A stretch of DNA of 64,000 nucleotides from Entamoeba invadens IP1. Its lineage: Eukaryota > Evosea > Mastigamoebida > Endamoebidae. This document shows, one piece after another, positions 29,499-53,888 of the stretch (its first letter is position 1; every line of letters starts with the position of its first letter). The DNA is taken from assembly GCF_000330505.1 (NCBI RefSeq), contig NW_004440426.1:293094-357093 (forward strand). Reading direction: 5' to 3'. Made by a program: the position numbers and the translations under genes. Under the pieces are notes generated by a model. That model worked only from the letters and a program-made list of their open reading frames with translations. It was not told the DNA's origin and did not search any database.

Positions 29499-29784
29499 AT
29501 ATTTGTTATTGGTTAATTATACTATTTGTTTGAAATTTGTCTTATGCTAAATTGTTATTTGATTTGTTGTTGTTTCATTATCACTTATTTTTATTAAAAA
29601 GATAAAACTAATAATTAAAAACTATTGTTGTATTAGATAAAAATTATTTATTTGTATTAATGTTTTGTTTCAATTAATAAATAAAAACTATTTAATAGCA
29701 ATATTATTAATTATAATACAGTTTTATTACCTTAATAAAATTAGAATTAGATACTATTTTTAATGAAAACAAATCATAGTAATA

Positions 29785-30081
29785 TGGGTCACAATACGAA
29801 AATGAAATAATTTCATAAACAAAAGTAAAATTTGAATAAGAATTAATTATTTAAAATTACTTACAACCTTTGAAGTTTCTCTGTTTTTATGTAGTGTCTT
29901 ATTTTTGAAACTATATAATATAATAACTTTTATCAATGTGTATACTATTATTGTTTTTTTCTTTTGAAAAAAAAACATGTATTCTATTGTTTTACTATAT
30001 TCAACTATACTATATATAAGTTATATTTTAATTTAAATTAACAATTAATAAACCAGATTAAGTTATCCTAATCGCCCGTTT
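29785..30081. repeat. left terminal inverted repeat
   Basis: 297 bp from TGGGTCACAATACG to ATCGCCCGTTT; exact inverse of 31830-32126. Confidence 0.95.
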
Positions 30082-30140
30082 AAATACTAAACTTGAACGC
30101 CAATTATTCCGTCAAATGTCCAATCATTGTTTTGAATTAA

Positions 30141-31739
30141 TTAAGCAATTCTTTGTTGTTCTTGTATGACTCGTGGAGGTAACTGCCTTATTACTCCTGG
30201 GAGAGAATAACGTTCATTAATTAAATAAAAATGAACATCTCTTAATGGATACGCAAGAACATGATAGTTACATAAACAATGACAAATTGTAGTCAAATTG
30301 TTATATTTGTTTATACTCAACGAATAAGGTTCTCGCATTATTTTAAATAAACTAACTAATCTCCCAAACATGTTTTCCACTATAATTCTAAGAGAAGATA
30401 CTATGCTGTTGTGAATTTTTATTATACCATGGGTGATTTCATCATCAGTTGTGTCGAATTTATACATTCCAATTACATTTTCAATTGAACCATACGCAGA
30501 GTCAGCCAGTACAAATTCGTTATGCTGAGTCAACCACATTTTGAAATTTTTAAAAATAGTTGCATCGTGGAATGAAGCTGGTATACACGTTGTCAGCTTT
30601 GTAACAATTCCCAGAGAAGTGCAATAAGCTTCACTTTTTAGTGCACTCTTGTTAATCTTTTGACTAAAAAAGACACCATTCCAACACAGCCTCCCACCCA
30701 CGATTTTTGAAGAGTTGTTAACCCTTTGATCTCTACCATCTACTGCAAACCTACACTTTTTTAAATTGGGAATCCATTCACTATAAGAAGCCTCACAGGT
30801 CTCTGCAAACGTTTTTGTTATTTCTGTTGTATTTTCCAACTTTACCATTAAATGTTCTCTGGCGTTATCTGTGAACAAATTTAATGCATCTTCTATTGCC
30901 CTTTCAACTCTTAACTCAGCTCTGGTGGTCACCAATAATGATTGTTCTGAATTGATGCTCCAATCTCGATCTTTGAATTTTTTATTCATTCCCAAACACA
31001 AATAAATATCAAAATAAGATTTGTTGGTGTGTAATAGAGTCATCAAAATCAACAAATTTTCGTTTGTTTTTAAATTGTTTGATTTTGAATGTCTCAAAAT
31101 TTCTGATGAATACTTTTTATCAGACCATGTTGCAACACGTACATTGTGTCCGTTATTATCAAAAGAGAATCTACACATCAAACTACTAAAAATTTCATGT
31201 ATCTCAACAAAGTCTTTTATCTGAAAACCCGTTAATCTCTTTATGTTGTTTAGATTTATTTCAACAAGGTCAGTGGCTTCTGGCATAACAAGGTGTAAGT
31301 CGAGTGGGTTTGGAGTTTGATGATTAAGTAAATTGGGTGTGGATAATATTCTTTGAATAAAGTTTTGTCTTGTTTCATCAACGAGCGGTTGTGCAACAAA
31401 CATACCTTCGGATCTCAAATGACGCAAGTAATCAGTTGTATCTCTTCTCCGAGTATTTGAGAGTTGTTGTGGTGTGTTATGTGTTTCTGAGTTTCTTCTG
31501 GATTCATTAGAAGTCATTTGTTGCTGGCGTATATCCATATCGACATGTGTTGCTCCTCTTCTTGTTGCCACTGTGGTATTAAGAGAGTTTGAGGTAATTT
31601 GTCTTTCTCTTTGGGTGGCTATTCTTGTTGGTTGTGTTGTCTGCATTCGGGGTGCAACAAATCTCAAAACACTGGTTGGGGTTGGTGCAGTTGTTGTACT
31701 TGTGTTCGGGTTGTGTGTGTTCTGTCTTTGACGAGGCAT
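30141..31739 (-). CDS. DDE_Tnp_4 transposase (PIF/Harbinger-IS5-like)
   Basis: A 532-residue transposase, intact from ATG 31739 to the stop. The first 115 residues are Thr/Gln/Arg/Asn-rich and probably disordered or DNA-contacting. A helical middle region (about 150-300) precedes the RNase-H-like core. The catalytic triad is readable: D334 in FAVDGRD, D413 in VLADSAYG, and E455 in IIVENMFGRL, with 79 and 41 residues between, the DDE_Tnp_4 spacing. The HDATIFKN segment before D413 (about 391-398) is also typical of IS5/Harbinger/HARBI1 proteins. No Myb-like partner ORF, which most PIF/Harbinger elements carry, is in the element, so it is closer to single-gene IS5-like eukaryotic elements. No stop or frameshift is seen. 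Confidence 0.85.
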   Translation of the reverse strand: MPRQRQNTHNPNTSTTTAPTPTSVLRFVAPRMQTTQPTRIATQRERQITSNSLNTTVATRRGATHVDMDIRQQQMTSNESRRNSETHNTPQQLSNTRRRDTTDYLRHLRSEGMFVAQPLVDETRQNFIQRILSTPNLLNHQTPNPLDLHLVMPEATDLVEINLNNIKRLTGFQIKDFVEIHEIFSSLMCRFSFDNNGHNVRVATWSDKKYSSEILRHSKSNNLKTNENLLILMTLLHTNKSYFDIYLCLGMNKKFKDRDWSINSEQSLLVTTRAELRVERAIEDALNLFTDNAREHLMVKLENTTEITKTFAETCEASYSEWIPNLKKCRFAVDGRDQRVNNSSKIVGGRLCWNGVFFSQKINKSALKSEAYCTSLGIVTKLTTCIPASFHDATIFKNFKMWLTQHNEFVLADSAYGSIENVIGMYKFDTTDDEITHGIIKIHNSIVSSLRIIVENMFGRLVSLFKIMREPYSLSINKYNNLTTICHCLCNYHVLAYPLRDVHFYLINERYSLPGVIRQLPPRVIQEQQRIA

Positions 31740-31829
31740 TCTGTGAATAAAGTTAACAAAAAGTGGTTTAAATAAATAACCTAAAATATACTGAAATATT
31801 GGAAATATTTCTATTTTAATTACTTAAAA

Positions 31830-32126
31830 AAACGGGCGATTAGGATAACTTAATCTGGTTTATTAATTGTTAATTTAAATTAAAATATAACTTATATATA
31901 GTATAGTTGAATATAGTAAAACAATAGAATACATGTTTTTTTTTCAAAAGAAAAAAACAATAATAGTATACACATTGATAAAAGTTATTATATTATATAG
32001 TTTCAAAAATAAGACACTACATAAAAACAGAGAAACTTCAAAGGTTGTAAGTAATTTTAAATAATTAATTCTTATTCAAATTTTACTTTTGTTTATGAAA
32101 TTATTTCATTTTCGTATTGTGACCCA
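31830..32126. repeat. right terminal inverted repeat
   Basis: 297 bp ending CGTATTGTGACCCA; exact inverse of 29785-30081. Confidence 0.95.
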
Positions 32127-32265
32127 ATAAACTATAATACAATCTATTTAAATAAAACAGTTTAAATAAAAAGAAAAGAAAAAAAACATAGTAAAAGTAT
32201 AGTAAAAATGTAGTAAAGTCTAAACCATTAAATTAGGGTTTTTAGAGTGTTCAACTTTGGTGCAG

Positions 32266-53037: not shown

Positions 53038-53888
53038 TCACTTCTTCTTCTCTTGCTGAGTTCTTTCGTTCTTGTTCATTTGATACCCGACAAAGCCAAA
53101 AGAGAACAAGAAGAGTAAAGTAAGAATAATAGCATTAAGCCACATCATTCCTTTATCTTGTTTTTTCGAGAACATTAAATCCTCACCAAGTACCTTTTTC
53201 ATGATCTTATCCAAATCAATTTTGGTGGTATCCTTCTTGCTAACATCAATGATTGATTCTACCGAGTCTTGGAGTATATAAACAAAGACATCCCTTATAA
53301 NNNNNNNNNNNNNNNNNNNNNNNNNNNNNNNNNNNNNNNNNNNNNNNNNNNNNNNNNNNNNNNNNNNNNNNNNNNNNNNNNNNNNNNNNNNNNNNNNNNN
53401 AGGTGTGGTCGTCGTACTCCGGTCTTGACAAACTCTCCACAGATGTTTCTCTTTATTTCAGAGAAATTCGCATCGCCCTTATCCTTTGAAAAGACCATTA
53501 CATGTCTTCCACTTTTCGGGAACACCAAATTCTTCTTCACAAAGTCAAGTGGTATGTTGATGAGCACAGAATGCCCGTCGTACTTCCCCGCAGTTATTAT
53601 TTGGAACAACACCAATGCTCCATACCCATCACCAACACAGATGTGTGGGTGATACTCTAATAATGAGTCTAATTGATAATAAAAAGATCCCAACGGGTTA
53701 AGTGGGGCCATGTGGACGGTGTTTGTATCATAAAAGTAGTTCAAGTATACTCCCAAATTACTATGGGGTCCTTCACAAACACCGTGGAAGTACTGCACTC
53801 TAAATGGGTTGGGGTACATCGTGGTTGGCTTGTTTTTCAAAAACCTTTCGCTCTTGATGTACTGCACTTCGTTCTCCCCAACAGCCAT
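53038..53888 (-). CDS. tail-anchored protein interrupted by assembly gap
   Basis: Gene split by N at 53301-53400. The N-terminal part (ATG 53888 to the gap, about 162 residues) is mixed alpha/beta with HICVGDGYGALVLFQII resembling a nucleophile elbow with Asp in the nucleophile position, which may be chance. After the gap the frame continues to TGA 53040-53038 with a Lys-rich helix (VSKKDTTKIDLDKIMKKVLG), one transmembrane helix WLNAIILTLLFLFSFGFVGY and a basic tail KNERTQQEKKK. That places it as a single-pass protein with N-terminus in the cytosol or lumen; without a signal peptide a tail anchor is likely. Whether both parts share a frame depends on the true gap length. Family not recognised. 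Confidence 0.55.
53301..53400. other. assembly gap of 100 N
   Basis: Exactly 100 N, the usual size for a scaffold gap of unknown length. It lies inside a coding region. Confidence 0.99.

Follow-up and report, generated by a model that had tools for sequence, protein, structure and literature searches.

The window analysed here, a 64,000-nt stretch of the Entamoeba invadens genome, contains a real, well-bounded, low-copy Harbinger-like transposon, and in every full copy of this transposon the arms evolve in concert. The element very likely represents the PIF/Harbinger-IS5 (PHIS) kind of cut-and-paste DNA transposons, with one gene and few copies, and the identity of its arms is then maintained and is no clock. 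The element is 2,342 bp long (window positions 29785-32126), and its parts are as follows.

29782..29784, no strand: left copy of the target site duplication (TSD), ATA; the 3-bp length is supported by one paralogous empty site of the copy C8a
29785..30081, plus strand: left terminal inverted repeat (TIR), 297 bp, starting with TGGGTCACAATACG
30141..31739, minus strand: transposase open reading frame (ORF), 532 aa, DDE_Tnp_4, with D334, D413 and E455
31740..31829, minus strand: 90-bp spacer from the start codon to the right arm, a putative leader or promoter region judging by its position
31830..32126, minus strand: right TIR, 297 bp, the same as the left arm
32127..32129, no strand: right copy of the TSD, ATA

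The two arms (29785-30081 and 31830-32126) match at 297 of 297 bases, and the mismatch starts at the next base inward. Chance cannot plausibly account for perfect 297-bp inverted repeats on the two sides of a transposase gene. A sequence-only reading of the window had described a single-gene element with long, identical TIRs and had proposed a search for near-identical copies. In the 35-Mb assembly (233 contigs), we found two full copies, C8a (C8:117597-119933) and C8b (C8:306506-308838), each of which is 97% identical to the window copy (W). A fourth copy is partial: 807 bp are visible at C7:442240-443046, where the copy (C7) runs into a large N stretch (assembly gap). The exact 19-base end pattern GGGTCACAATAYGAAAATG occurs seven times, always at the ends of W, C8a, C8b or C7. 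Thus, the description of the arms and of the single long ORF was borne out, and the same ends recur at other sites. Miniature elements (MITEs) sharing the window ends, which had also been proposed, did not appear: the 19-base pattern, which would miss diverged ends, turned up no MITE in the genome. Matches of 66 bp to the arm on C220, C231, C206 and C204 were considered as MITEs and rejected; they belong to another multi-copy repeat.

ATA stands immediately outside each end of the window element, as had been noted from its sequence. The TSDs of the full copies are ATA (W), TAA (C8a) and TAT (C8b), all of 3 bp (3/3), and C7 has TTA on its single visible side. Because the full copies carry ATA, TAA and TAT, the duplication is constant in length and variable in sequence; on this small sample of three full copies, the target would be described as WWW rather than TWA. 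The flank of C8a is an interspersed repeat with 28 matches including itself, and two of the paralogs were aligned to the joined flanks. One of them, L082, is an empty site that is missing exactly one 3-bp copy, and the other, L083, has indels at the junction. The suggested comparison with empty sites therefore succeeded only for C8a; one flank each of W and C8b was searched, and only self-matches were obtained with a search that skips simple repeats. The element ends and the 3-bp length of the duplication are firm. Different boundaries or a different duplication in other copies had been named as evidence against the sequence-only reading: the boundaries and the 3-bp length are the same in the other copies, but the sequence of the duplication differs.

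The ORF at 30141-31739 (minus strand) encodes 532 residues and is the sole long ORF of the element; an 85-aa ORF on the opposite strand overlaps it (ORFs of at least 80 aa were considered). Residues 354-491 match Pfam DDE_Tnp_4 with an E value of 1.5e-16 and 60.9 bits (cut-off, 24.8), in agreement with the assignment made from the sequence. The first aspartate of the proposed triad, D334, lies outside the Pfam match; it is invariant in all five aligned sequences, the window's included. In an alignment with a remote protein carrying PF13613, PF01609 and PF13359, D334, D413 and E455 fall on the triad residues of that protein. Pfam detected no Myb/SANT domain in the long ORF, and no second gene was seen among ORFs of at least 80 aa. 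The element had also been called intact, and this part was not supported. From the PLRDVHFYL motif onward, 35 residues are present in the window ORF, as compared with 55 in C8a, 55 in C8b and 53 in C7; a copy of a sister family, C132, has 53 residues (hand count) with a recognisably similar tail. The window frame ends 18-20 residues before the frames of C8a, C8b and C7, and is shorter than in all three sister copies and in C132. The window gene appears to be slightly cut short, and the window copy probably no longer makes full-length transposase, although the early stop may be a sequencing error. The reading frames of C8a, C8b and C7 are broken, and no full-length intact frame of the window family was found in the assembly. 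The pN/pS values are 0.25 (W-C8a), 0.58 (W-C8b) and 0.57 (C8a-C8b). The value for W-C8a fits past purifying selection on the transposase, and taken together the values are compatible with a protein once under selection and a later decay of C8b.

A protein search with the transposase as the only query found none of 5888 candidates at E <= 0.001, the window family being too divergent for a search with one sequence. A five-row alignment used as query gave a single remote protein. A single-sequence AlphaFold model of the transposase had a mean pLDDT of 31 and was discarded, the fold being not predictable, and a PDB comparison gave nothing meaningful. Among viral contigs, 178 pattern matches contained no relatives. 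The tRNA and Rfam scans of the whole window gave no matches (0 and 0). The window has a G+C content of 34% and contains a 100-N run at 53301-53400, which is an assembly gap within an ORF.

PF13359-type elements are common across this genome, in which the window family forms one branch of low copy number. With 81 of 90 candidates scored, the transposase matched at least 74 genome stretches at E <= 0.001; PF13359 had 51 matches, and 45 of them were above the cut-off, one only when taken together with its neighbours in frame. A second single-gene family is present at L012 (C132) and L013 (C114). Its copies are 97% alike and have arms of about 250 bp that start with TGAGAAATGACAC. The duplication of C114 is TTA, and the two sides of C132 are unmatched, TTA on one and TAA on the other. 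A third family (L030 on C209, L032/L078 on C13, and L068-L077) possesses 383-bp arms, a longer transposase ORF and TWA duplications. Its transposase is related to that of the window element (29% identity in the alignment), and its duplication is likewise 3 bp. The TIR of this C209/C13 family starts with AGAGAAAGG, its arms contain repeated AAGGACGTCC-like motifs, and the arms of C209 are identical over 383 bp. With 40 of 86 candidates scored, the C209 arm has at least 63 matches in the genome, a figure that includes the long copies. The C209/C13 family, unlike the window family as searched with its exact end pattern, has MITEs; together they show TAA or TTA in 12/12 insertions with both ends read (C203, with one end, was left out).

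Several other elements were observed. L053 (C180) and L065 (C190) also carry DDE_Tnp_4, but their inverted ends are short (20-22 bp), and they may form a lineage separate from the long-arm families. L041:544-3180 is an 879-aa ORF with a DDE_Tnp_4 domain. Pfam sees DDE domains only in this ORF; by eye, its C-terminal part resembles an Ulp1/CE-clan cysteine protease, and the best PDB match is ChlaDub2 with an E value of only 0.44. A multi-copy repeat common to L014-L017 is interrupted at L016:2407-4109 by 1.7 kb of sequence whose inverted ends are 53 nt long (91%).

We compared the arm changes within each long-arm family. W, C8a and C8b are 2.4-3.3% apart in the interior and 0.3-1.7% apart in the arms. 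The arm changes in these copies are five substitutions and two homopolymer-run indels, and 7/7 are present on both arms with none on one arm. C7 was excluded from this tally because only one of its arms is visible and the pattern cannot be tested; this arm has about nine differences from the window arm (hand count). In the sister family, C132 and C114 differ by five changes on both arms and two on one arm near the inner edge. In the C209/C13 family, the arms share two substitutions and one 2-bp deletion, and a single change, at the tip, affects one arm. Counting changes within the inner edges and leaving out C203 (one arm), the three families sum to 15 changes on both arms and three on one (hand tally). 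C114 has a broken frame, and its arms are 100% identical over 250 bp. In each full copy, one arm thus evolves in concert with the other. Independent change of the arms would have required many parallel mutations, so copying between them seems to have occurred, probably as repeated gene conversion that rewrites one arm to match its partner. Arms that change together give no date for the insertion. The sequence-only reading had taken the identical arms as a sign of little time since insertion, which the shared changes do not support, and had offered conversion between arms as its alternative, which is what the copies show.

The MITEs of the C209/C13 family give a different picture. In a sample of 10 MITEs (628-632 bp), the duplication is TAA or TTA in 10/10. 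The arms are 6-8% apart within each copy in 10/10, whereas they are only 2.5-3.1% apart between copies, and 14 columns show a fixed left-right difference. Outside these columns (n = 47), both arms carry the change in 17 cases and one arm carries it in 30; the 17 are counts of copies, not of events. These values suggest that arm conversion is weak or absent in the sampled MITEs. However, the contrast is imperfect since 17 of the 47 changes are found on both arms and the lower arm similarity alone could block conversion. A role of the transposase in driving conversion is not proved by it either, because the MITE arms may be too different to pair.

As a mechanism, we propose that the DDE transposase would bind the element ends and excise the element, which would then insert at a 3-bp A/T target that becomes duplicated. 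One arm would be copied over the other, either in place via pairing of the inverted repeats or in gap repair after excision. Tentatively, excision and repair cycles in an Entamoeba single-gene Harbinger-like lineage may keep the 250-383-bp arms identical, with non-autonomous MITEs escaping and drifting; we regard this as possible, with the odds somewhat against it. A comparable chance, well short of even, is given to equalisation of the arms at transposition only, where one arm would be copied onto the other as the excision gap is repaired, and in-place conversion plays no part. The elements with identical arms are of transposase size (2.1-3.2 kb), and the ten MITEs of one arm family show no clear arm homogenisation, as this transposition-only route would have it. 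Nothing stands directly against it; however, MITEs also transpose, and the differences at the C13 tip and the C132 inner edge fit either route.

The identity of the arms might instead mean simply that every copy was inserted recently. The full copies are only 2-3% apart overall and no more than 1.7% apart in their arms, both of which are compatible with recent insertion. Nevertheless, this explanation is improbable: it accounts for the absence of later differences but not for the earlier changes that the two arms share, nor is it favoured by the identical arms of C114 with its broken frame. The shared changes refute recent insertion as a sufficient cause; it may hold in addition to conversion. 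It is more doubtful still that the arms look identical through collapse or overwriting by the assembler. The assembly contains N gaps, and identical repeats are a known trap, but the same assembly retains the arm differences of all ten MITEs and the one-arm differences in C132 and C13. Furthermore, collapse is expected to blend copies, and the copies here are distinct. Finally, one long open frame and few copies would conform to a host gene, domesticated or single-copy, that lies between repeats by chance. This reading is refuted by the empty site and by the recurrence of the ends and of 3-bp duplications elsewhere in the genome.

The PIF/Harbinger survey (PMC4482050) gives a TWA duplication for this group, states that most autonomous elements have two ORFs including one for a Myb/SANT protein, and describes TIRs of which about 93% are shorter than 60 bp (range, 5-1042) and whose first base is usually A or G. 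The window element shares with these elements a DDE_Tnp_4-type transposase with the DDE triad and a 3-bp A/T duplication. Of the four matched duplications in the window and sister families, two are TAA or TTA (C8a and C114). In contrast, the window element has one gene and 297-bp TIRs beginning with T; a second ORF of this kind was not seen, although the word "most" means that this trait is not strictly defining. Within the window family, TAA occurs only in C8a, and two of three full copies are non-TWA. Because ATA (W) and TAT (C8b) are not TWA, the element, being single-gene and long-armed with a relaxed target, is filed under the PHIS kind and not under the PIF/Harbinger group proper.

Other groups have a related DDE domain, and Spy is likewise single-gene. 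As described in the same source, Spy makes no duplication (AAATTT target), ISL2EU has a 2-bp AT duplication and a YqaJ gene, and the duplications are ANT in Pangu, CWG in NuwaI and TNA in NuwaII (PMC4482050). Spy was ruled out by the presence of a duplication, ISL2EU by the 3-bp duplication and the lack of a YqaJ gene, and Pangu because the duplications of the window family are not ANT. Neither CWG nor TNA fits the combination of ATA, TAA and TAT. These distinctions are made by duplications and genes as described. The bacterial IS5 family was rejected as well: NCBIfam transpos_IS5_4 gave 16.2 bits against a curated cut-off of 140.

Galileo belongs to the P superfamily, a superfamily other than that of the window element. 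In each of two published copies its TIRs are more than 99% identical to each other, and from one copy to the other they are about 7% apart, which is the same concerted-arm pattern as in the window family; its 7-bp duplication is unlike the 3 bp found here (PMC2775673). Conversion between TIRs has also been argued for ISWpi1 (PMC3004938). Concerted arms are thus previously published for Galileo, and here they are seen in three long-arm families. For three Entamoeba species, Lorenzi 2008 lists mutator, hAT, mariner/Tc1, piggyBac and unknown elements; PIF/Harbinger is not listed, and the words Harbinger and PIF are absent from its main text (PMC2657916). Among the titles retrieved, we found none that describes a PIF/Harbinger element in Entamoeba or E. 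invadens; such an element may be catalogued in Repbase.

A PHIS-type transposon is added to the element lists of this Entamoeba host group. TIR divergence is tempting as an estimate of age, and it would fail here: full copies that are 2-3% apart have zero arm-arm mismatches because their arms change together. The genome offers matched material, namely three homogenised long-arm families and the MITEs of one of them without homogenisation. In these families, long identical arms appear to mean conversion, not youth. If excision and repair cycles do maintain the arms, then arm identity would be a by-product of transposase-driven repair and not of age.
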